From: Amaurobius ferox
Lineage: Eukaryota > Arthropoda > Arachnida > Araneae > Amaurobiidae
Length of the DNA: 64,000 nucleotides
Reading direction: 5' to 3'
Assembly: GCA_951213105.1 (NCBI GenBank)
Contig: OX578153.1
Location: forward strand, 54,188,020 to 54,252,019
Part shown: piece by piece, positions 1 to 61,965 of the stretch
Layout: each line of letters begins with the position of its first letter
Position numbering within the stretch: the first letter of the stretch is position 1
Translations under genes and position numbers: made by a program
The notes under the pieces: model-generated
Databases searched by the model: none
The model's input: the letters and a program-made list of their open reading frames with translations, nothing else
Told to the model about the DNA's origin: nothing

Positions 1-2427
1 TGTTACCTTATTAAGTTAAAATGGGTTAAAATGACAAATGTGATTTATGTGTAGAATTTTGGTACAAATCAGATACTTGAGATAAATGCATAAAATTTTC
101 AGATTTAAACCCGATATTATTTTGTCCTAATAATATTTTTGTTGAAATAATATTTTTGTCGATAATATTTTTGTTGAAAGAACTATATGGCTAGAATCAT
201 TGCAGAAAATGGCTTGACTTCATGGATAACAATTATAAGTAGTTGCACATTTAGCTATAATTATATTAACAATTATAAGTAGTTGCACCATTATTGAATG
301 TAAGCGTTCCAAGTATTGGACCAATCAAAAAATGGCTGAATTACATGGACAGACATTATATGTAGATGCATATTTAGCCATTATTAAATGCAAATGTTCC
401 AAATATTGAATCATTCATAAAATAGCTAAATTGTCAAGCTTGATTAGAAAATATGCTAAACTACCCCATATTCGAAAAGAACATATTATTATTTATAGAT
501 ATAGATGTATTAATTAAATTGGTACTAATATTGAATTTATATATTTCCCCACGGGCAAAATATTTTATTGTGGTATCACGCTAGATAAACAAAGCTCTTA
601 TTAGCGGTTAGTTTCAAAATCTGTATTTTTAAAGATCTTGTAGTTTTAAAATAATCGTTTTGTCAAATTGATAAAGATTTGTCGGTTTTTCAAGATGGTA
701 ATGCATATATCTCAAAAACTAAACGCGCTAGATATAAACAAAAAACAAGAGTTTCTATCTCCTTGAAAGGCCTAAAAGTATATATAAATGGATTTTGGAT
801 CCAGCTCTTAGTTTTCGTAATATAATGGTTATAATTTCGATATTTTAGTATTATAATCTGGGATTTTCAATGGGTGGGAAAGTTTTTATATTTAAAATAT
901 CACAAGTGTTGCATCTCAATATGTTTACTTACTCTTTGGTAAAATATTGATGCACAAGTACGAGATATTTTTTTGTTTAAAAAAATTAGGAATTTAAATG
1001 AACTTGAAGATTCTATTCAAGATACGTACTCGAAGTACGTATTCAAGGTACGTATTCGAGGTACGTATTCAAGTACGTACCGCCAAGGAAGTTTATTTAT
1101 AAACTTAAATCTAAAATCGCATTAGATATACTGTATAAGTTTCATTTATATATCGCCAAGCAAGTAAGTTAGTAAAATAATATGGCATTTTGATGTGAAG
1201 TCTATGGTTAGAGTATCCAGAAGAAATAGTGTTGAAAACTAGATGTGCTAGCTATCTATAAACAGTTAGTAAGTCATTTGTAGTGCTTTAAAAGCCTGTA
1301 AACAATACAAATGAGTCTGAAAAAAATCGAATAAACTTATTGAACTTTACTGGAGTATTTACAAAATTTTATTCAAGTAAAACCATTTCGGCCCCATTAG
1401 ACTAGAGCCACCGCCAATTACATTTCAAATATCTTACGATAAAATCAAAGTGCGTTAAAGAACGTGGTACTAATCTTTTCAAATATCAAACAAAGACAAG
1501 AAAGGCTAGAAACTTAACAAGAAAACGCGTTGATAAAAATTTTAAATGTGTACTGTACTCTTTTGATCTGTAGGCTGTAATGGACTTCCCGCATTACTTA
1601 TCACAATAATTTTGTGACAACTGTACTCTGCTGTTGTTTACAACTATACTCTCTTCTACGCAATACACCGATTTTCTGAATAAATTATGCAAGCACATGT
1701 CACAATAAAAATTTTCAGCAAGCATCCTATGAATGTGAACAGCAGAGATGTGGACAGAAAAACCTTTGTAAATAATTGTGGTACCTGATCCATGTGGGAC
1801 GCATTCAACATGGGCTGTACAAACAGAACTAATATTTATAACAAATTAAATGCACGAAGAAATTATAAACACAAATTAAAAATTTTCGAATAATTTTATT
1901 AGAAAGCATTTATTTTGTCCCCATCACCTATCGTTAAGGGTTTTATTATCACGTGTCAATTCTAAAAAGAGTCACAGTCTAAAAGTACTGTACCTTTGTT
2001 CTCTTTCTGAGAATTGTCTTCAGAAGTGCGTTCTTGGAATGTCAATTATCGAGTGAAAACCATTAAAGAAACACAGGAAGTTCTTGCGTCTTTAATGGCT
2101 TTCGGTAAATCCGTAGATTAAAAGCAAAAGACAAAAAATGTGAAAAAGTGCTGGTTACAAACAGATAACAGAAACTTCAGAGACGCTTTTGTGAATGGGT
2201 GTAAAAATTCTTTAAAGTATGCCATTGAAATGTAGGATGTTAAGATTTAAAGGTATTAAGAATGGCATAGTATATTTTTCTTAATTTATTCAATTGAGTT
2301 ATCTCATTGTTTGAAAAAGATTTAGTGAGTGCCATTGTAGGTTGACTATAAATAGCCTTTCACAAAAGACAGTTACGTACTTTACGCCATAGTAACTGTT
2401 CGGCTTTAAAATCAATAGTATTGTGTG

Positions 2428-2430
<3 letters not shown>
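1..2430. other. AT-rich stretch without a recognisable gene
   Basis: No open frame with protein-like composition and no convincing exon was seen on either strand. A short phrase (ataagtagttgcac) recurs near 236-250 and 278-292 within a degenerate local duplication. At about 1020-1078 there is a small tandem array built on tacgtattcaag. The rest looks like unique or very old AT-rich DNA. Confidence 0.6.

Positions 2431-2462
<32 letters not shown>
2431..2462. repeat. (TA)n microsatellite
   Basis: A pure TA run of about 16 units directly abuts the dispersed repeat B that follows. Tyr/Ile-rich open frames here are translations of this tract and not genes. Confidence 0.9.
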
Positions 2463-2465
<3 letters not shown>

Positions 2466-2700
2466 AAGTAATAATAAAAATAAATAAAGAAATCATGAAA
2501 TATTATCATCACCATAGAATCAAAATCACTGCCATAATGCCGATAATAGGAAAGATCAGCACCGGCCCAAATTCGAAGATTAAAAAGAATTAAATTCATC
2601 TTCAGGTCTGAGTATTTAATTCTAATTAACCCAAACAAATGCCAGTTTCAAACTGGACAATTGTACATTACTATAAATGTCCAAACTTAGACGACAGGCA
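2463..2700. repeat. Dispersed repeat B, copy 1, bounded by (TA)n on both sides
   Basis: This segment is homologous to 54567-54782. Shared phrases include cagcaccggcccaaattcg and aggtctgagtatttaattc. Both copies contain a 10-bp inverted pair (AGAATTAAAT / ATTTAATTCT) around a short loop, and both are bounded on each side by TA tracts. No protein is evident. It could be the end of a transposon that targets or generates TA tracts. Confidence 0.7.
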
Positions 2701-2707
2701 CCAAAAG

Positions 2708-2739
<32 letters not shown>

Positions 2740-2832
2740 AAAGAGAAAGAGAGAGAGAGAGATATGTATATATATATATATATATATACATAAGAAAGAG
2801 AAACTATATATATATATATATATATATATAGC
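2708..2832. repeat. Compound (TA)n / (GA)n microsatellite
   Basis: Three TA runs are separated by GA-rich segments (agagaaagagagagagaga and aagaaagagaaac). Apparent small open frames on both strands are artefacts of this low-complexity DNA. Confidence 0.9.
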
Positions 2833-5685
2833 TTCATAGCAGAAAATAGGGCAGTGCTTGTTTACGCGAGCATATAAACGCACTTTGTTTACATTATTTA
2901 ACAGGTGTGTCACTGCAAATGTTTATTGTGACATAGACGTGTTTTATTGTTGTGGACGTATTCTAGTCAGATTGAAATGCAGTTTTTTAAAATGTACGCC
3001 AAGTTTTTTAAAAAGTGTTTCTGAAAAATCTTATTTTTTATATAAAAGGTGTCATCTCCCCTTATAAGCAGAATAAAAAGGAGAGAGAGTTTTATTGTCT
3101 CTGTTAAAGTGAAACAAGGAGCATATAAATACATTTGAAGTTTTTATTACTTAGTAATTGATTTTCTGAATTTTCACTCACCTTCTTTTTGTGCCTTCGC
3201 GGTATCACTCCAGTTCACTGTCTTGTAACTATGAATTATTTTTAGCCTGACAGATTTAAAGTAATATCACTGCCCTAGAGCATTTTACTTCGTTTTACAC
3301 TTAAAAATCCTAATTTGACGAATATTCTTATTAGTGGACGCAATATAATGATCTCTGCAGTAACGTGGCAACGTCAAATAGTACTTCTTTAAAATATGGG
3401 CGATGGTAAAACAACGTCCTCCGATCGTAACTTGGTTATAATTGTAGAACATATACTTTCATTTCAATTAAAATTGACAATCGACTAGAATCTGGAATAG
3501 GACAAAAGTTCCTTATAACCATTTGTGTATGATGTCTTCTACTTCATACACAATTCTAGAAATGTGAACCTTGCCGTCTGATTGAAGTCCTTTGGCTTTA
3601 ATATGTTCTAGAATTCCTTGCTGTATAGGATAAAACCATGATTTAGTAGTTATGAAATTAACTATTGATTCAAGGTAAGGTCAAATTTAAGCAGTGCTGA
3701 TAGATTTTGAACTACATTTGGATTTCTTTTTTATAATACAATGTGAATATAATGTGTTTCCTTCACAAAGTCATCCATAAAAAAGCCTATTTTCTAGTAT
3801 GCCTAAATATAGATCTTGGTTATAATACTCGCCTTTATTACAGCATAGTTGAATATTTAATGCATACTAAAGTCTCCCTTTTCAATGTAATCTTTTGATG
3901 ACAACCTACTTTATCAGACTAAATGTAGACCTTGGTGTTTACTTTCGTCTTCTACAGCGTATATGAATGCATAATAAAATGTCCCTGTGACATAGCACTT
4001 CTTACAATAGAACCTTCTTTTACACATCTGGGAACCATGGTTATGATTTCGCGGTTGCAGCAAAAGCAGACAATGAGGTAATCAACGATTCTTAAAGCAC
4101 TTATTTCAAAACAAATTTTTTGGTAAACATATTCCCTTTGAATCCAACAACTGTTCAAGGCAAACTTTAGCGTCGCCCACCATTGCCAGATATCTAAGCA
4201 ATCAGTTTTACATTACATTAAAGCAATTTCTTCCGTATAATAGGGCGTTGCAAACTTTCTTGTTTCTATGTGATAGAGTGGATCGAGGCCTGCTATGCAC
4301 GTACAGTTTGACCTTCAATTAGAACTAATAGGCTGAACTATAAAAGTTATGCCTGTTTGTTCCGCGATCTCACAGATAGGATTACGCACAGATCGAACTG
4401 TTAGGTGTTCATCTTCTGTCTGCCTTTGAATGAAAATAATACAAACACAAACAATGTTGATCAAAGAATCAAACCGATGAAGACTCGACGGTAAGGACGA
4501 CACGCCCTACACAGCTTGCAGCGCAGGCAAGATGATCTAAGGAAATTTCCACAATCCAAGCAATATGAACATACATCAGTTCATGCTTTCAAGCCTGAAC
4601 TATCCAGGCCATTTGGAAGGGCAAACTGTACAATAGGCCCGCCTAGTTTTGTAATCCAAAGCAAGGGAAACAAAAACACAAAATTTAAAAATCTGCAGTT
4701 AGCCGAGCCCTTCAGTTAAAGTGTATTAAATAACTTTGTATTTATAATATTTATTTTTATAAAATACACTTTTTTTTTTTAAAAAAAATCTACAATCAGA
4801 AAAGTTAAGTGTAGCATTCCAAAAAGTTGGGACCAAATATTTGTGACAATACAAAGCACTACACTGTTCATGAAGAAATCAAAATATATAATACATTATT
4901 GTGTCTATTTTGTAAAAGTGTTGTACCTCTTAAAAATGCTAAATTCTAAAGTGTTTACACAAGAACCAGCCAAGATTCTGTAAATTATGACCTATTACAG
5001 AAAATATTACTATTACATTTAATTTTAATATTTTAATGTTCGATGATTTTGCAGCTGTAGAATGAATTAAACATCCAAATTAGATATTGCTAAAATTTCT
5101 TCCAAATAGTACATTCAAAATACATCTAACTGTGTTTATCCTCTAAATATTTTAGGTTGTTGCAGCCAATGGAAAAATGTGAATACAAGAGAAGAGAATA
5201 AGAAATGCTGCAATAACTGTAGCTAGAACTTGTTTCATCGATTCCAATAAAGGAATTATTTTCAAAGAATGTTTCAAAACTTTTTCGCATCGTTTTCAAT
5301 CGCAAGCTGTGTAAATGCCAAATGTGTGTTAGTTTACAATTTAGCACATGGAGGTAAAGGTAAGGAGTTAAAGCTCCATCCTGAAAAAATGCCAATATCA
5401 TTTGAGACAATAATTTAGGTGGCGCTTGCGATAACGTAAGCCATTGTATGTAATTCTATAGTGAAAGACTTCAAATATTTATTTAAATTGTCAATTTAGT
5501 GAATCAATAACTGAAACAATAATTTACCTGGAACAATAATTTAACAGAAACAATAAGAAATATACCTACGTATTCAAAATGATTTTACCTTTCAATTTAT
5601 TTTTATTGCCCCTTTTCTGAACTCTGTACTACAATTGTGAAGCAATACTGATAAATTATACTGATAATTAAAGAATTTTAATTTA
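2833..5685. other. Long AT-rich region, no supported gene
   Basis: Several open frames of 60-95 codons occur, for example 5126-5410 on the minus strand. None shows a recognisable domain, a matching exon structure or codon bias distinct from the background. A short T run followed by an A run lies at about 4770-4790. I see no RNA gene and no clear transposon boundary. Confidence 0.55.

Positions 5686-7375: not shown

Positions 7376-7405
<30 letters not shown>
7376..7405. repeat. (TA)n microsatellite left of the Penelope-like element
   Basis: A TA run lies about 100 bp outside the left terminal repeat of the reverse-transcriptase element. A second TA run abuts the right terminal repeat. Confidence 0.85.
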
Positions 7406-7409
<4 letters not shown>

Positions 7410-7505
7410 GCATAGTAAACATATAAAATTAAAATTAATTCCACAGTTATCCAATTATTCTCCAGAAGTTGGCGCAAAGCAGCACACTCTCCTAAAGTAA
7501 CATAC

Positions 7506-7775
7506 AAGATTCATATGAAAAAATAAGGGAAATGACCAAATGCAAGGCATAAAATGGTAGAGGGGGATGGCGACCCCTCTTTCCCGTTTAAAAGACTGCT
7601 TTTATGCCCGGGCAACACTCACGGTACCAATGCCATGCAGAAGTCATACTTCCGTATATGTGTCAAGTCAAAAACACTCGAAAAAGTGCAGAGTAACAAA
7701 TAGGAATCAACCAGGATTGCAAGGGAAGGAAAAGAATGGAAATGCAGCAAATGCCAGAGTGCCTTATATATAAAA
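7506..7775 (+). repeat. Left terminal inverted repeat of the RT element
   Basis: This arm is the reverse complement of 9987-10256. The outer end begins aagattcatatg and the inner end is ccttatatataaaa. It contains a hairpin (AGAGGGG, loop gatggcga, CCCCTCT) near 7559-7580 that is conserved as a motif in three related arms in the window. It lies 42 bp beyond the RT stop codon. Confidence 0.85.
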
Positions 7776-7817
7776 GCAGTTTACGCATGCGTAATACGTT
7801 ATTTTACTTTCATCGTT

Positions 7818-10058
7818 CTATACCTCTGCCATATCCTTTAAGTAAGCATTTTCTCCCTTTTTTGTATTAAATAGGGAATTATAATAACATGTCAGGAAGC
7901 CAATTGGATAATTCCGTTTTATTGCCTCCTTCATAATATTCCTATTATGCATGATGCAATCTGACTTGAAAGTATTGATGCGTTGATTTCGTTTGAGGTG
8001 ACCTATGACGACATTTCTGAAGATGTTTTTGGTCAAATTGGAACTCCAGTCTATAATATGATTGATTTCCAAATTGAAATTGTTTCTCTTGTCATATAAG
8101 ACGGTATAAGTACCATATCTACTGTCATGTTTTAGTGTGATATCTAGAAAATCAACACTATCATCCTCCTTACTTTTATTCTCAATCAATTCCAGTTCTT
8201 TTGGATAAAAAGTAAAATCAAATTGGGGTGTATTCTTATATTGCCCAACAAGGACATCGTCAACATATCGAAAGTATGGCATTTCATGTAGTATATGAGT
8301 GCCATTTTCAAATTTACTCAAGTATAGATCGGCGAGCAGGGATGAACAACCCCCTCCCATGGGAATACCTTTAACCTGTTGAAAATAGCTGGTGCCATCA
8401 AATAAGATATTTTCAAATAACACAATGCGAATCAAGTCCTTGTATTTTCTGAAGGTAATATGCTCTTTTAAGTCATATATTTCATGTAGTTCCTTCAAAA
8501 TTTCATATAGATTTTCCAGATTGATGTTGAATAAATCACGGAAATCGTAACTTTTGAAACGTATATCCTTGTTATAAAATGGAAGTCGGTTGATGACATC
8601 GTAACTATTATTTATCATTACTGTTCCTTGTTTCTTGAGTATAATCAGAACATTTTTAAGTATAGTTAAAAGTTTTTCATTTGCAATTGTCAAATAGGAT
8701 CCACATCCCACTGTCACCGGCCGGAATTTGACTGGATTTTTATGAAGTTTTGGTATTAATACCAAATATGGAAAGTTAACTACTTTAAGTTCGATATCAA
8801 TTAGTTTATACAGAGCTTTGATGTTATTTGCCAAACAATTTCCATTTTGTTGCAAAGGGGAGTACATTTGTTTGTCAAGATAACTATTTTTTAAAGTATC
8901 AACGTAGTATTTTCTGCATGTGAAAGCGTAATTTGATACTACTTTATCAGTATAAGTTATAACATATTTATCTTCATATTTATTGACTGCATTTTGAAGA
9001 GAAAGATAATACGTTTTTTTACACACTGTTTTGTAGTGGAGATTGAACATTTTGGTAAGGTTGTATTGCCATTCTTTGAAAGCTTGTATTGGCATGCTGT
9101 ATTTTACGGTGAGTTTATATGTAAATTTCTTTAAATCTTGTTCAAAGTCCTTTTTAATATTAGTGAAATCTTGTATTCGAAATTTCGTACCAAGTTGAAG
9201 CATAGATTTTAACTTCCGATTATCCAATAGATCCAGGTTTCCAGTGACAATGTGCCCATGATGGGTATCTATGTAAGGGCTGTTTTGACAATTACACACT
9301 TCACTTTGATATACATGGATGTTTCTGCTTATACGATTATAATTAAATATTTTTCTACCATTGGTTTGCACAAATTTATAAATCAGCTTTACCTCGATGT
9401 CAGGTATTGGCAAGAGATGTGCCAAGTTTTTTATATATGTCTTGATTGGTATTCCATCATAATTTTTATTTTTGTAGGTTGTAACAAAATGCTCTGCTGT
9501 AGTAGTTTTCTTCCGGGTAGAGGGTTTTAATACTATGTTTAATGTACTTGCTTTTAGTTTAAGTAAATCCATCATTATAGCGTAGTTTGTACATGCATTT
9601 TCATTATTGTTAACAATTAGATGTTCTTCGAGTTGATACTCTTTCAAATAACACCAGATGCGTTGAATATAACGTTTTTTTATACTAAATATAAGATTTT
9701 TAATCCATCCAGGTTTTATTATTATTCCTGTACACACATTTTTTATGAACGTTTCGATCTTTTCAAGAGTTGCATTATAACTGATTTTATTATGTTTTCT
9801 TTTTCCCCTTTGCCATCTCTTTTTTATAGCACAATGAATATATTGTAATACAGGGTTACGTTTTTCATTTTTACAAGATTCCAAATTATAATTGTCATTA
9901 AATATGATCGTATTGAGTCCATACGGGAAAGCTGTTCCATATTGTTGGATGTGTGTATTTTCCCACCAAAGTCTTTCTGACAGGCATTTTATATATAAGG
10001 CACTCTGGCATTTGCTGCATTTCCATTCTTTTCCTTCCCTTGCAATCCTGGTTGATTC
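7818..10058 (-). CDS. Reverse transcriptase of a Penelope-like element
   Basis: This is an uninterrupted frame of about 746 codons, ending in TAG at 7818-7820. From the TTG at 9884 it runs 688 residues. RT motifs seen, numbered from that TTG, are PKLHKNPVKFRPV (about 378-390), GIPMGGGCSSLLADLYL (about 506-522) and the catalytic RYVDD (about 539-543). A conserved C-terminal block follows (VDFLDITL, then a basic segment and KEAIKRNYP). Upstream, the frame stays open to 10058 and reads CxxC (KCSKC), then SERLWWE and GTAFPYGLN. I take these as the tail of an N-terminal GIY-YIG endonuclease module as in N-terminal-nuclease Penelope-like elements, with the GIY-YIG core missing. No in-frame ATG lies near the 5' end, so the true start is unresolved; a frameshift, splicing or 5' truncation is possible. 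The reading as RT is firm and the subfamily is inference. Confidence 0.8.
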   Translation of the reverse strand, partial: ESTRIAREGKEWKCSKCQSALYIKCLSERLWWENTHIQQYGTAFPYGLNTIIFNDNYNLESCKNEKRNPVLQYIHCAIKKRWQRGKRKHNKISYNATLEKIETFIKNVCTGIIIKPGWIKNLIFSIKKRYIQRIWCYLKEYQLEEHLIVNNNENACTNYAIMMDLLKLKASTLNIVLKPSTRKKTTTAEHFVTTYKNKNYDGIPIKTYIKNLAHLLPIPDIEVKLIYKFVQTNGRKIFNYNRISRNIHVYQSEVCNCQNSPYIDTHHGHIVTGNLDLLDNRKLKSMLQLGTKFRIQDFTNIKKDFEQDLKKFTYKLTVKYSMPIQAFKEWQYNLTKMFNLHYKTVCKKTYYLSLQNAVNKYEDKYVITYTDKVVSNYAFTCRKYYVDTLKNSYLDKQMYSPLQQNGNCLANNIKALYKLIDIELKVVNFPYLVLIPKLHKNPVKFRPVTVGCGSYLTIANEKLLTILKNVLIILKKQGTVMINNSYDVINRLPFYNKDIRFKSYDFRDLFNINLENLYEILKELHEIYDLKEHITFRKYKDLIRIVLFENILFDGTSYFQQVKGIPMGGGCSSLLADLYLSKFENGTHILHEMPYFRYVDDVLVGQYKNTPQFDFTFYPKELELIENKSKEDDSVDFLDITLKHDSRYGTYTVLYDKRNNFNLEINHIIDWSSNLTKNIFRNVVIGHLKRNQRINTFKSDCIMHNRNIMKEAIKRNYPIGFLTCYYNSLFNTKKGENAYLKDMAEV

Positions 10059-10256
10059 CTATTTGTTACTCTGCACTTTTTCGAGTGTTTTTGACTTGAC
10101 ACATATACGGAAGTATGACTTCTGCATGGCATTGGTACCGTGAGTGTTGCCCGGGCATAAAAGCAGTCTTTTAAACGGGAAAGAGGGGTCGCCATCCCCC
10201 TCTACCATTTTATGCCTTGCATTTGGTCATTTCCCTTATTTTTTCATATGAATCTT
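9987..10256 (-). repeat. Right terminal inverted repeat of the RT element
   Basis: This is the 5' arm relative to the RT. On the minus strand its inner 70 bases are in frame with the RT (CxxC motif region), so it overlaps coding sequence, and the left arm is an inverted copy of this 5' part. The outer end joins a (TA)n tract at 10256. Confidence 0.85.
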
Positions 10257-10272
10257 ATATATATATATATAT
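10257..10272. repeat. (TA)n microsatellite right of the RT element
   Basis: A short TA run immediately follows the right terminal repeat and separates it from a second, diverged arm-like copy. Confidence 0.8.
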
Positions 10273-10299
10273 AGTAAATACATAAGAAATAGACGTTTG

Positions 10300-10640
10300 A
10301 AAAAACAGGTTGCAAACAGGTAAAGTACGAAATGCCCGAGGGGGATTGTGACCCCTTGTTCCCGGTTACAGCATGCTTTCACACCTAGGAAACACTCCCG
10401 GACACCAATACCTTCCTGATGCATACTCCCATCTGCCACCACAATAAGATCAAGTGAAAAGTAGAGTGAAAATAAAAAGGACAAATTACCAAAAAGAACA
10501 AGCCTTAAAGAGATCTTTACCCAATAAATACAAAACATAATAGCGACCCTCCTTTATAATCGTCGACCAACATCAATAAAGTAACACCTTAGATATACAC
10601 CTTTAACACAATAGCAAGAAAACCCATATCAAAAACCTAT
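10300..10640 (+). mobile_element. Arm-only Penelope-like remnant
   Basis: The sequence gagggggattgtgacccc, then ttcccggtt, then aacactcccggacaccaatacc aligns in order with the left arm at 7558-7640 and with arms at 29020 and 40810. The part after 10440 resembles the spacer following the 40.8 kb arm. No RT follows; the copy ends at a short TA run near 10640-10650. Confidence 0.6.
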
Positions 10641-18957: not shown

Positions 18958-19345
18958 CACCCCCCTAGGATTACCCTCTAGGATTGACCTCTAGTATTAG
19001 CCGTTCACGACATATTTTAGTTTTTTCGCATTTTTGCTACGCGGCTTTTGAATTGTGCAGTTACCAAATGAAAACGAAAATTGAGCAGGAAAAATCAATC
19101 ATACATAAATCATTGATTATGAAACACTTTCCAACTTCAATGCAATTTTATATAAACATCTCTAAAATGCGATATATTCCTCGGTAATATTTTTAAAATT
19201 ATCACAATACTACATCAATTTATTATGTATGAAAACATCATCGAAAACAAATGAACTTTATTCAAATGACGTCATCGAAATATAATTCGGCTCTACATAA
19301 AAGCAGCATTCCATTCATAAACATTGTTTCATTCCTTTCATTCAG

Positions 19346-21030
19346 CTAAGAACATGAGAATCACGAAAACTTCAATTCCGCCCATTAATGGCTTACATTC
19401 TCTCGCCCAGACTGCGGAGGAAAAAGCTAATGCTATTGCAGATAGCTTGGAACTCCAATTCACTCCACACGAAGACCCAAACTTCAGCCATACTTACACA
19501 AGCACTTTACACGATTTCCAACAGACCAATCAGAATGCTTTAAACGTACAAGCACCAAACGACCTCGAGTCCATACACTTGGCTGAAGTTCACAATATCA
19601 TACATAGCTTCAAAGCAAAGAAATCACCTGGCTCTGATAAGATCAGCAACAGAATGCTGAAGAATCTTCCTGTTTTTTATGAGTGCTGGCTCACCGTGCT
19701 CCTTAATCATATGTTGGAACTTCGATACTTTCCCCAGAGTTGGTAGACTGCTGATGTCATCCCTCTCTTCAAAAAAGGTCAAAATCCAAATTCAGCTGAT
19801 AGCTACAGACCTATCAGCCTTCTATCTAGCCTTTCCAAAATTTTTGAGTTAGTGTTGCTTAGACGTTTGACTAGTTTCTGCAGATCGAAAGACATTTTAA
19901 TTCCTGAACAGCACGACTTTCGATCTGATTTTTCCACGCATTCCCAACTCATGCGTGTAGTGGAAACTATTCACAAAAACTCTACCAACAAGCAGTATAC
20001 CAGCATAGTATTTTTTGATATCAGTAAAGCTTTTGATAAAACCTTTATTCCGGGTCTGCTCACCAAGCTGGTCCGACTTGGTATTTCGACACAACTTTTG
20101 GCTCTCATCAACTCGTATCTTGCTAAACGTTCTTTCCGCGTACGAGTTGAAGATTCTTACTCTTCTCTTCGGCCAATCAGAGCCGGGGTCCCACAGGGCG
20201 GAAATCTTAGCCCACTCTTATTCAACTTATATATCAACGATATACCCAAGATCCCGCAGGTACAGCTGGCCATCTTTGCAGATGACACAGCCCTGATTTC
20301 TAGAAGCTTATCACCTAAATTCGCTATTAATACACTCCAAAGCTACATAAAGAATAGTCTTGAGCACTGGCTCGTGACCTGGAGAATCAAAATTAATCCG
20401 ACCAAGAGTGCAGTTGTCATTTTTCGACCGAACTACCGAGAACTTAGACTCAGTAACTTCTCCCTTAAAATTTTCAATGATCCGATCCCCTTTTCACAGT
20501 CTGCAAAATATTTGGGCGTCACAATTGACTCCAAATTAATTTTCGCTGAGCATATTACTAATAAAATTGCATCTGCTAACAAAACCTTTGTAGCCCTCCT
20601 CCCACTTCTCGGTAGAAAGTCTCACTTGTCCCTTTATAATAAACTGCTCATCTACAAACAAATCATTGCACCTGCGTTTTTGTATGCTTGTCCTGTATGG
20701 GGCTCGGCTGCAAAAACGCACATCGAGAAATTGCAAGTGTTTCAAAATAAAGTCTTGCGCTGTATTGTAAATGCGCCCTGGTTTGTCCAGAACGAGGTGA
20801 TTCATCATGACCTTAAAGTCCCACACGTTGCTGGGCACATTCGGAAAACTTCTCAAAATTTTTTCAGGAAGAATGCTAGCAAACCCTGCCTGAGTGGTGT
20901 CGATAGTAGCTACGACACTTCCACGACTTCCTATCTTGGGAAAAGAAGGCCTAGACACCTTCTCACCGGGCCTGCGGTGCCTCCATGGAAGCGCCCCAGA
21001 TATTCTGCGCCCCAGGCAGGCGTTTCCTAA
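19346..21030 (+). pseudogene. LINE reverse transcriptase with one premature stop
   Basis: One reading frame spans the whole segment, broken only by TAG at 19744-19746 just after FPQSW, where relatives usually have a Lys or similar before ADVIPLFKKG. RT landmarks are SADSYRPISLLSSLSKIFE, IVFFDISKAFD (catalytic D), AGVPQGGNLSPLLFNLYIND, and FADDTAL with the catalytic DD near 20280. YLGVTID and the thumb/C-terminal region (PVWGSAAKTHIEKLQVFQNK) follow. This pattern matches the mobile-element jockey RT family. The near-intact frame suggests a fairly recent loss of function. Confidence 0.85.
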
Positions 21031-28867: not shown

Positions 28868-28979
28868 TAATATAAAGAAAGTGGATTATCAGAAATATAT
28901 GTGTTATAGTAATTATGCGCAAAGCAGGAAGAGGTACTATACACCATATAATGCATAAAAAAGGAATGGATAAAAAGTT

Positions 28980-29940
28980 AAAAAAGGAAGGAAGGCTTAG
29001 CAAAAAGCTTACTTGATGGCGGTAAGGGGTTGTGACCTCTTTCCCCAGTTTTCAACGAGCTCGTCATAAATGCCGCGGCACTGCACTCCTGGTCGCCAGC
29101 TTTGGCTCAAGCCCACCTCCGGAGTGACAATAAAAACTGTCACAAGACCTTCAAAAAGGATTGAACAGAGGACGAGAGTAAATTCACTACCGTACAAGCG
29201 ATCTGTATTGCTGACCTCGGTGAAATGTATACCGCATCTTATGATCGTGCTGCGGTCCTGTCATATGCATGATGCGATCCTTCATTCTCTAAATGAATAT
29301 AAAAAAGACTTGAGCTTTACACCATACGCTAAATTGTTTCGGTATAAATTATCTATATTTTTAAGCATAAAAGGAACTGGATATTTTTGAATATATGCTT
29401 GCTTTAAAAATACTTGATCAAAATCAATACGTAAATTTTCTTCTTTGATAGTTCTTTTAATTCTGACCAATCCTCCCAAGAATACATTGCGAAATATATT
29501 CAAGTGTAGGTTGGAGTGCCAATGTATTATTCCATTTATAGGTATTTTAAAATGGTTTCTTTTGTCATAGATGGTAAATATGATTGGGATTTGTCGAAAG
29601 TTGATATTCAAATCCAAAAACTCAACCACGTTGTTATTTTTAACTGGATTTTCTTTCAATATGAGGTTGGGTGGGTAGAAATCAAAGTTCATACAATAGT
29701 TTTCATTCTCATATCCAATAATCACGTCATCTACATAACGCAGGTAAACGATTTCGTTGTTAATATGAGACTGGCTTTCATAAAAACTAAGGTAGAGATC
29801 GGCTAGTATGGAAGAACATCCCCCCCCATGGGGATGCCTTTAATTTGTTGATATGCAAAGATTCCATTGAAAAGATAATTTTCTTTGACGACTATTCTAA
29901 TTATAGTCTTGAATTTATTGAATTCTATATTTCTTTTTAA

Positions 29941-40729: not shown

Positions 40730-41600
40730 AGTATATCTATATATATATATATATAACATAATAAATAGAAATAGAAAAATGAAGAATGACATTGTATCAA
40801 AATTTCGCCGGGGGGGATTGTGACCCCCACTTTCTGGTTCAGCCAGCTTTATGTCATGACGACACTCCCGGAAGCGGATACAATGTCGCCAACCAAGTAC
40901 ATATACTTAAACTATAAATGTAAAAAAGAAAAGATTTGAAAAACCTATACAGTCCCTACACCTATACAATAGCAACGAGCATTACCACATCCAAACAGAA
41001 ACACTAAATACTATGAAAATAACTTACATCCAATACCAATATACCAAGAAAAACAAACCACGCATACATCTCACCGAAAAGCGAAAGACTCTCACTTTGT
41101 ACAAAAAGACTTCTTTCAGACAGTTAACCCTGACCTCCGCAATGCAGCTGCTGTCCATTTCCATCACAGACTGAAAGTGCTTTCCTATTCAAATACAAGT
41201 CGCAGCACTCAGTTACGGTTATGCTGTAAAATTTACATAAAATATCACTGAGAAAACGTTGAGGGTAACCCATTTCGATTGCTTCCTTTAGATAGCCCAG
41301 ATCACTTATATAACGATTTTCAGCACTGCTATTTAAACGTTTGCTTCTTGTTAAAAAATTTATAATAATGGTCCTGAAAACATTTCGTCAGAAATTGTGC
41401 CACCTCCCTCCAATAAGAAAATTTCAGGCTACTTGACAATTTATAATCATTCGACGTGTGTATACATATTGAGACAGCCCGTATATTAGCATTAAATAAA
41501 TCCAATGCATTCAATTCAAACCTTTTGCCAAAGTGAAACAAGTTTTTTTGTTAACAATTTACAAAAACTTTTAAAAGCATAATTTGTGAATGATGCTCAT
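40730..41600 (-). mobile_element. Penelope-like remnant, copy 3
   Basis: A (TA)n tract (about 40730-40755) is followed by a plus-oriented arm (ggggggattgtgaccccc, then gacactcccggaagcgg). About 200 bp later comes the 3' end of a frameshifted RT on the minus strand (41100-41560). This is the third example of the order TA tract, arm, RT 3' end. Confidence 0.65.
41100..41560 (-). pseudogene. Penelope-like RT C-terminal fragment
   Basis: Two minus-strand frames together resemble the C-terminal block of the intact RT. One has KLSSSLKFSYWREVAQFL in place of the region around HIIDWSSNLTKNIFR. The other has GYLKEAIEMGYPQRFLSDIL in place of NIMKEAIKRNYPIGFLTCYY. A frameshift lies near 41330, and no RT palm motifs remain. 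Confidence 0.6.
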
Positions 41601-59641: not shown

Positions 59642-61965
59642 ATTCACTTCGATGATAAACACTTGCAGTTCCATTCCAGTTGCTAGATGGTAGGACCACG
59701 GCTAGTAAGTACGAAAAGCTGTGGTTCGATTTTCGTACTTACCAGCCAGTACGACCGACACAGATTCTGTGGTCTCTTGGATGTTGAGCGCCGATTTCAA
59801 AACAGTAGTTTAATGACCATACCGGAAACTTACCTAGAAGGTAAAATAGTAGCAGTAGAGCCAACCTGTGGTAAAAATAGCAGGACGTGCTCAGCCAGAT
59901 TGTAGTTGCATATCCGTCTGGCATTAGAGGGCAAAGAATGGGAAGATTATTTCGACGATAACTGCTTGAAAATCCATCCCAGTAGCTCTACGGTAGAGAG
60001 TTGGCTGGCCAGCCAGTATGAAGATAGAGGGTTCGATTTTAGTTTGGATTAGCAAGGTTCTTTACAATGGCGCCCGAACGAATTAACCCTGCAGGCTCGT
60101 TCAGTGATGTCAGTAGTCTGAAAGTAAGCTTAGTACGACCGACACAGATTCTGTGGACTCTTGGATATTGAGCGCCGATTTCAAAACAGTTGTTTAATGA
60201 CCATACCGGAAACTTACCTAGAAGGTAAAATAGTAGCAGTAGAGCCAACCTGGGGTAAAAATAGCTGGACGTGGTTAGTCAGATTGTAGTTGCATATCCA
60301 TCTGACATTATGGGGTAAAGAATGAGAAGTTTACTTCGACGGTAACAGCATGCAAATCCATCCCAGTAGCTCAACGTTAGAGAGTCGGCTGGCCAGTATG
60401 AAGAAACAGGTTTCTATTTTAGATTGGATAAGCAAGGTTCTTTGCAATGGCGCCCGAACGAATTAACCTTGCAGGTTCGTTCTGTGATGTCAGGGGTCTG
60501 AAAGTAAGCCTAGTACGACCGACACAGGTTCTGTGGACTCTTGGATATTGAGCGCCGATTTCAAAACAGTAGTTTAATGACCATACTGGAAACTTACCTA
60601 GAAGGTAAAATAGTAGCAGGAGAGGCAACCTGAGGTAAAAATAGCAGGACGTGGTCAGTCAGATTACAGTTGCATATAGATCTGACATTAGAGAGTAAAG
60701 AATGAGAAGTTTACTTCGACGGTAACAGCTTGCAAATCCATCCCAGTAGCTCAACGTTAGAGAGTCGGCTGGCCAGTATGAAGAAACAGGGTTCAATTTT
60801 AGATTGTATAAGCAAGGTTCTTTACAATGGCGCCCGAACGAATTAACCTTGCAGGTTCGTTCTGTGATGTCAGGGATCTGAAAGTAAGCCTAGTACGACC
60901 GACACAGGTTCTGTGGACTCTTGGATATTGAGTGCCGATTTCAAAACAGTAGTTTAATGACCATACTGGAAACTTACCTAGAAGGTAAAATAGTAGCAGG
61001 AGAGGCAACCTGAGGTAAAAATAGCAGGACGTGGTCAGTCAGATTGCTGTTGCATATCCATCTGACATTAGAGAGTAAAGAATGAGAAGTTTACTTCGAC
61101 GGTAACAGCTTGCAAATCCATCCCAGTAGCTTAACGTTGGAGAGTCGGCTGGCCGGTATGAAGAAACTGGGTTCGATTTTAGATTGGATAAGCAAGGTTC
61201 TTTACAATGGCGCCCGAACGAATTAACCTCGCAGGTTCGTTCTGTGATGTCAGTGGTCTGAAAGTAAGCCTAGTACGACCGACACAGGTTCTGTGGACTC
61301 TTGGATATTGAGCGCCGATTTCAAAACAGTAGTTTAATGACCATACCGTAAACTGACCTAGAAGGTAAAATAGTAGCAGAAGAGGCAACCTGAGGTAAAA
61401 ATAGCAGGACGTGGTCAGTCAGATTGCTGTTGCATATCCATCTGACATTAGAGAGTAAAGAATGAGAAGTTTACTTCGACGGTAACAGCTTGCAAATCCA
61501 TCCCAGTAGCTCAACGTTAGAGAGTCGGCTGGCCAGTATGAAGAAACAGGGCTCGATTTTACATTGGATAAGCAAGGTTCTTTACAATGGCGCCCGACCG
61601 AATTAACCTTGCAGGTTCGTTCAGTGATGTCAGTGGTCTGAAAGTAAGCCTAGTACGACCGACACAGATTCTGTGGACTATTGGATATTGAGCGCCGATT
61701 TCAAAACACTAGGTTAATGACCATACGGGAAGCTTACCTAGGAGGTAAAATAGTCGCAGGAGAGCCAACCTGAGGTTAAAATAGCAGGACGTGTTCAGTC
61801 AGATTGTAGTTGCATATCCATCTGACATTAAAGGGTAAAGAATGAGAATTTTACTTCGACGATAACAGCTTGCAAATTCATCCCAGTAACTCAACGATAG
61901 AGAGTCGGCTAGCCAGTACAAATATCCGTTGCCGATTCCGGATTGGGGCAGCAAGGTTCTTTATA
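59642..61965 (+). repeat. 380-bp tandem satellite, about six monomers, tRNA-SINE-derived
   Basis: The phrase acgaccgaca occurs at 59751, 60135, 60515, 60895, 61275 and 61655. Spacing is 384 bp once and exactly 380 bp four times. Each monomer carries an A-box-like tagctcaacgttagag, a B-box-like ggttcgatttt, then tggcgcccgaacgaattaac and agaaggtaaaatagtagcag. First and last units are the most diverged, and the last loses the sequence after ggttcttta. A 69-codon open frame recurs in three units by repetition only. Confidence 0.9.

Follow-up and report, generated by a model that had tools for sequence, protein, structure and literature searches.

The spider Amaurobius ferox carries, in a 64,000-nt stretch of contig OX578153.1 (positions 54,188,020 to 54,252,019; hereafter the window), a reverse transcriptase (RT) framed by perfect inverted repeats. 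This unit is one young, 5′-truncated insertion of a Penelope-like element (PLE), of a kind already known for such elements, and its value lies in the family-wide pattern that is reached through it. Head-to-head, two-armed insertions recur in the host genome, with a second arm that ranges from less than 30 nt to nearly full length. In all 36 scored two-armed insertions, drawn from three related families, one 3′ end bears a tail and the other lacks it. On the sequence evidence, the window unit is probably explained by two-ended target-primed reverse transcription on element RNA, followed by end joining. The one-tailed, one-tailless pattern places a sharp constraint on any model of PLE replication. 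For annotators, it is a reminder that an RT between perfect inverted repeats is not necessarily a new transposon class.

An insertion with two inverted 3′ ends

The two arms are as the preliminary description had them. In a comparison of the window with itself, positions 7506-7775 match 9987-10256 in inverted orientation over 270 nt, without indels and with 270/270 identity, a match far too improbable to have originated by chance. Called with its outer edges, the inverted match spans 7502-7775 and 9987-10260 (274 nt), of which 270 nt form the exactly identical core. In coordinates of the full unit (u), the minus strand of the copy carries u1175-3757 and the plus strand u3390-3664, and the copy has the following parts.

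7376-7409, no strand: (TA)n tract bordering the insertion at its tailed 3′ end
7410-7505, minus strand: tail, about u3665-3757 (the unit's final ~94 nt), found next to the left arm but not the right
7506-7775, minus strand: left arm, sense-oriented sequence from the 3′ UTR of the element itself
7776-7817, minus strand: remaining 3′ UTR, from the arm to the stop codon
7818-9984, minus strand: ORF truncated at its 5′ end (the element starts at u1175), encoding a telomerase-like RT but no GIY-YIG core
9985-9986, no strand: filler of 2 nt at the inner junction
9987-10260, plus strand: right arm, an inverted 3′ UTR copy, u3390-3664, with the tailless end
10256-10273, no strand: (TA)n tract at the tailless 3′ end
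10296-10440, minus strand: 3′ UTR of a related element, older and diverged, lying tail-to-tail against the insertion (nhmmer E 4.9e-11)

The RT frame had been described as uninterrupted and intact. It is indeed open on the minus strand from 10058 to 7818 (746 codons), but it is not intact, because its earliest in-frame ATG comes at codon 162 (window 9575) and the first 165 codons of the full ORF are missing. Pfam finds only RVT_1 in this frame, below the cut-off (24.8 bits against 29.6), and GIY-YIG is absent from the window copy itself by domain scan and unit map. Compared with the ORF of the full copy L057, the window ORF is one residue shorter, at DLFN(N)INL, a site that is presumably close to RT motif A. 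The insertion looks young, since its arms are identical throughout, as had been supposed. The accompanying suggestion that it may be active fares less well, as autonomous activity is unlikely for a copy that is truncated at u1175 of 3758 and has lost its nuclease.

The 3′ arm had also been read as an inverted copy of the element's 5′ coding end. The reverse holds: the arm sequence derives from the 3′ UTR, of which the element's 5′ arm is an inverted copy. A CxxC among arm-derived residues, resembling the cysteine-rich region of relatives, initially backed the coding-end reading, which was ruled out by relics whose arm-like sequence lies downstream of the RT, by own-genome matches and by the unit map. 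Nor is the right arm simply a copy of the left end, because it lacks the tail.

The older 3′ UTR and the window insertion have one (TA)n tract in common. Young copies tail-to-tail with older, diverged 3′ UTRs, sharing a TA tract, were seen at window 10256-10440 and also at L061:6243-6609. A TA tract left by one insertion may become the target for the next.

A domain-permuted Penelope-like element

A 3758-nt unit is present many times over in the 3.56-Gb host genome; it encodes a telomerase-like RT with a GIY-YIG nuclease on its N-terminal side. The full unit, taken from L057, consists of 3758 nt plus (TA)n and holds an ORF of 887 residues, with GIY-YIG at 96-182 (score 23.8 bits, cut-off 22.6) and RVT_1 at 640-746. 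The earlier assignment to PLEs is borne out: the RT has a telomerase-like fold, with the relation to telomerase RT expected of PLEs, and the full ORF unites a GIY-YIG endonuclease with the RT. The nuclease lies N-terminal to the RT, as in permuted (Naiad-like) elements, and among 17 relatives scanned GIY-YIG precedes the RT in 13, follows it in one and was not found in three. On these predicted domains the family is a domain-permuted PLE, similar to Naiad, Dryad and kin in domain order. Naiad and Chlamys are named as PLE groups in PMC10941475, and the title of Craig et al. 2021, as given in the reference list of PMC12910113, has such permuted elements dominating many invertebrate genomes.

Further PLE traits are present. 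Tandem or partly tandem units occur, with a further head-to-tail unit, whole or cut, at L051, L057, L058, L059, L061, L064, L065, L067 and L068, and the 3′ UTR is found at the tandem junctions. The 3′ tail is optional and the target AT-rich, tailed and tailless ends both lying by TA tracts. At C20:126802794-126814439, four same-strand 3′ ends ~3.78 kb apart form a tandem array of full units. Four same-strand family-1 3′ ends at C11:73849025-73869023 are spaced at 6.2-6.5 kb, against the 3.76-kb unit, and this is an array of a larger composite unit.

Each own-genome search scored the best 40 of 1818-4196 candidates. With the window copy as query, none of the listed matches runs from query 2483 into the right arm; the 40 other main matches (the best 40 scored) end at query 2482-2483, adjoining that arm. 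The expectation that other copies would be armed held in that many carry an inverted 3′-UTR arm, but the lengths and inner breakpoints of these arms differ.

Hammerhead ribozyme motifs are reported in other PLEs, although they are not known from all. Rfam returned no hammerhead at E up to 10 in the full unit or up to 5 around the window copy, searches that may miss minimal forms, and nothing convincing as a known RNA family or ribozyme in either region. RNAalifold on four 3′ UTR sequences gave a weak consensus, with two-sided change in 5 of 15 pairs, but single-sequence z-scores of 3′ UTR structure were -2.29, -0.48, -0.30 and -2.80, and the predicted fold was set aside. No relatives were confirmed among viral contigs, where a 15-base motif matched 38 stretches that we take for chance. 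A search of genome contigs gave two relatives, at 24% identity. On a metagenome-bin contig labelled Gammaproteobacteria (L002:1-2640), a distant RT relative is followed by a frame that resembles, by eye, a ubiquitin-specific peptidase.

Two 3′ end sites, one of each per scored pair

The 3′ ends of the element fall at two precise sites, tailed ends at u3757-3758 and tailless ends at u3660-3664. In the 20 fetched loci plus the window, with L067 left out, 29 of 30 3′ ends lie at one of these sites and abut a TA tract, which is interrupted in some cases. The single exception, at L052, is cut by other DNA. Mixed pairs, in which one end is tailed and the other tailless, account for every scored insertion; 26 pairs were read base by base and 10 by match extents only.

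Family 1, both ends read, 17/17 mixed: L049, L050, L053, L055, L056, L062, L063, L066, window, C9:129553744, C3:72470965, C19:49048750, C14:106864369, C22:34299548, C2:132953364 with L064, C2:46350258, C21:18216577
Family 1, match extents only, 9/9 mixed: C4:80319128, C5:28853233, C3:92554394, C3:104424820, C2:102780141, C22:11901370, C15:42071525, C10:69509450, C17:73144413
Family 2, 5/5 mixed: L086, L087, L085 with L089, L084 with L091, C5:139660926 (the last from extents)
Family 3, 5/5 mixed: L079-L083

Were the site chosen independently at each end, a mixed pair would have a chance of at most 1/2, and 36 of 36 a probability of at most about 1.5e-11, provided that the loci are independent. 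Arms were paired by orientation and closeness, and in 12 family-1 loci the reading extended through the inner junction. The 20 loci were hand-picked from own-genome matches, in some cases for a visible partner; the tail could not yet be seen, because the query ended at 7502. A strict one-of-each rule, or inverted structures in permuted elements, was not found in the full-text literature searched, and the founding paper on permuted elements may say more.

Left outside the count are L052, in which other DNA interrupts the second arm; C12:118251426/118256985, because both of its outward host flanks are the same sequence; and the cluster at C7:12985106-12989626. The C12 pair looked tailed/tailed, with host flanks free of mismatch over 519 columns. 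It is an inverted duplication covering host flank and tailed element end (C12:118251426-118256985), which could be genomic or an assembly fold-back. Two other candidate tailed/tailed pairs, C9:87256095 and C16:41723698, were rejected when the sites proved to be internal tandem junctions. Their true outer ends are tailless, 3-4 kb off at the former and about 11 kb off at the latter, where the end lies behind a ~7-kb insert.

Arm lengths and inner junctions

The arms do not behave as the terminal inverted repeats of a DNA transposon, in that only one of the outer ends has the tail and the arms vary in length from locus to locus. In the 11 family-1 loci with both arm lengths known, the shorter arm measures 155 (L049), 215 (C9), 275 (window), 295 (C3:72470965), 949 (L055), 992 (L053), 1177 (L050), 1350 (L066), 2744 (L062), 2876 (L056) and 2920 nt (L063). 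The tailed arm is the longer in eight of these and the tailless arm in two, while one has both arms at an equal unit position. By eye, and outside the 36-pair count, the 5′ junctions of L060 and L057 hold ~18 and ~28 nt of inverted tailless end beside TA.

Inner junctions also vary. The two arms differ in their inner breakpoints in 11 of the 12 loci with the junction read, and all 12 breakpoint pairs differ between loci; at L063, both arms stop at the same unit position. Five of 11 junctions show an overlap, of 6 (L055), 8 (L056), 4 (L062), 4 (L063) and 3 nt (L064). Fillers of 1 (L049), 5 (L050), 14 (L066), 2 (window) and 3 nt (L052) occur at others, and L053 is blunt. Sister arms are mutually closest by identity in eight of nine loci, some by one or two differences only, which suggests that a single RNA or parent, or two very similar ones, usually gave rise to both cDNAs. 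At L055, another copy is closer than the sister arm.

Copies with a single arm also exist. In L054, L058, L059 and L065, the truncated 5′ end joins the TA tract via a short filler, and L051 has repeated filler. C16:32912618 and C1:124193766 show no TA tract within 60 nt past the mapped 5′ end. The far ends of L061, L067 and L068 lie beyond the stretch fetched.

Proposed priming at both target ends

We propose that a (TA)n tract is cut and that both target ends prime reverse transcription on the 3′ UTR of element RNA. For the window copy, synthesis from the first end would start at the tailed site u3757 and copy back to u1175, while synthesis from the second would start at the tailless site u3664 and stop at u3390. 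Joined end to end with a 2-nt filler, 3′ ends outward, the two cDNAs would therefore form perfect inverted arms. We infer that each end has its own priming event, whether on one RNA or on sister RNAs, and that the gap is then closed by end joining. Two RNAs, or one RNA re-used, must be assumed, because both arms hold the same 3′ UTR. The one-armed copies described above count against two-ended priming, as does L063, whose arms stop at the same unit position as fold-back would give.

Biochemical work on Poseidon of Anolis carolinensis (PAc) offers a parallel to two-ended priming. In vitro, the PAc protein cleaves the two strands of the target and extends both, and reverse transcription begins within the RNA at two positions that flank the tail (PMC11167929). 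The family described here resembles PAc in these two internal start sites, in its AT-rich target and in its tandem units. It differs in that the PAc nuclease is C-terminal rather than N-terminal, and in that PAc has the hammerhead ribozyme for which Rfam gave no match here. No difference in PAc start site was seen in vitro between top and bottom strands (PMC11167929), so that the one-of-each rule is left unexplained by the Anolis work.

A stronger version holds that two-ended priming is obligate: every event would pair the tailed site, at one target end, with the tailless site, at the opposite end, and no site would serve both ends. On this version our judgement is evenly divided. If true, one reaction would produce a continuum of two-armed insertions, insertions with a very short, cryptic arm, and truncated copies with one arm. 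Perhaps an RT dimer, with a subunit at each start site, lies behind such obligate use; this, and the alternative that the tailless site is used only after the tailed one, are guesses.

Alternative origins of the arms

Two models of PLE replication are in print. One is self-priming on an antisense template (PMC3846280), the other target priming that begins at a site within the RNA (PMC11167929). In the former, a cDNA made on an antisense template serves, by folding back, as its own template and yields head-to-head arms. The account of Adineta vaga Penelopes describes 5′-truncated copies between inverted pLTRs, without target-site duplication, and reads them as self-priming because of palindromes at the inverted junctions (PMC3846280). 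The palindromic junction of L063 fits this, but it is the only one of the 11 inner junctions to do so, and arm lengths are usually unequal. A fold-back copy should moreover share the end site of its template, yet the outer ends differ in 36 of 36 pairs, and self-priming is unlikely to be the source of these insertions. LINE-1-like twin priming likewise employs both target ends, the second of which primes inside the same RNA to leave an inverted segment. The parts of the RNA copied in this way do not overlap, while the two arms here do, the same 3′ UTR standing in both at 12 of 12 loci with the junction read; twin priming is contradicted by this overlap, and scarcely tenable.

The arms might instead have been united by two separate insertions, or by later rearrangement or inverted duplication. 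At least one inverted duplication in this genome, the C12 case above, does take in host DNA, and old 3′ UTRs do lie tail-to-tail with young copies at common TA tracts (window 10296-10440, L061). Such origins would not, however, yield one tailed and one tailless end every time, nor arms that are each other's best match in eight of nine loci. In addition, the outward host flanks are unlike in seven of the nine loci tested, the exceptions being L050 (78% similar) and L055 (partial match), and we regard this family of explanations as very unlikely. That the arms are assembly artefacts, from a fold-back read or a collapsed repeat, is most unlikely: L063 holds 791 N and C12 resembles a duplicated end, but the window arms stand 2.2 kb apart and enter different host DNA, and the breakpoint pairs of the 12 loci all differ.

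Two-ended priming thus remains our preferred reading. The view that the inverted arm would be informative on how the element replicates has proved sound, and of the routes offered with it, a hairpin intermediate and an inverted dimer are not favoured by the data, which instead favour two priming events at two target ends. More broadly, the genome acts as a natural record, in which young insertions preserve the start and stop point of each cDNA and the way the halves came together.

Much of the architecture is shared with canonical, endonuclease-containing Penelope. For Adineta vaga, PMC3846280 already describes inverted terminal repeats of which one is tailed, and the family here is similar in its 5′-truncated copies between inverted repeats without target-site duplication, its optional tail on the 3′ end of one inverted pLTR, its tandem units and its head-to-head arrangement. 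Unlike the Adineta vaga elements, it has GIY-YIG N-terminal to the RT and inner junctions that are mostly non-palindromic. Its 3′ UTR, present at tandem junctions, may also be a 5′ pLTR.

Relics of related families in the window

Two relics of related families lie elsewhere in the window.

28875-29930, minus strand: family 2 relic, RT fragment and 3′ UTR
40756-41465, minus strand: family 3 relic, RT fragment and 3′ UTR

Their RT remnants occupy 29339-29833 (family 2) and 41184-41465 (family 3). Arm-like sequence lies downstream of the RT in both, matched weakly in family 2 (nhmmer E 0.34) and better in family 3 (E 0.0017), and alignment of either 3′ UTR to the 3′ UTR of the window copy scores above all 300 shuffles. 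For the window-copy tail and the family 2 relic, the stretch alone was reached by 340 of 500 shuffles, no better than shuffled sequence, and a colinear 11-mer common to both was reached by 6 of 1000; the tail was settled only by own-genome copies. Within the window, distances from a shared motif to the nearest outer TA tract fall into two classes, 158/164 nt and 56/57/67 nt.

For family 3 (window 40756-41387), 40 other scored places match only ~630 nt of the 805-nt query, from about query 174, and may represent a short non-autonomous derivative. The window also holds two adjoining open frames at 19321-21030 whose translation reads as a Jockey-like LINE reverse transcriptase, and a tandem satellite at 59744-61918 with 5.7 copies of a 380-bp unit.
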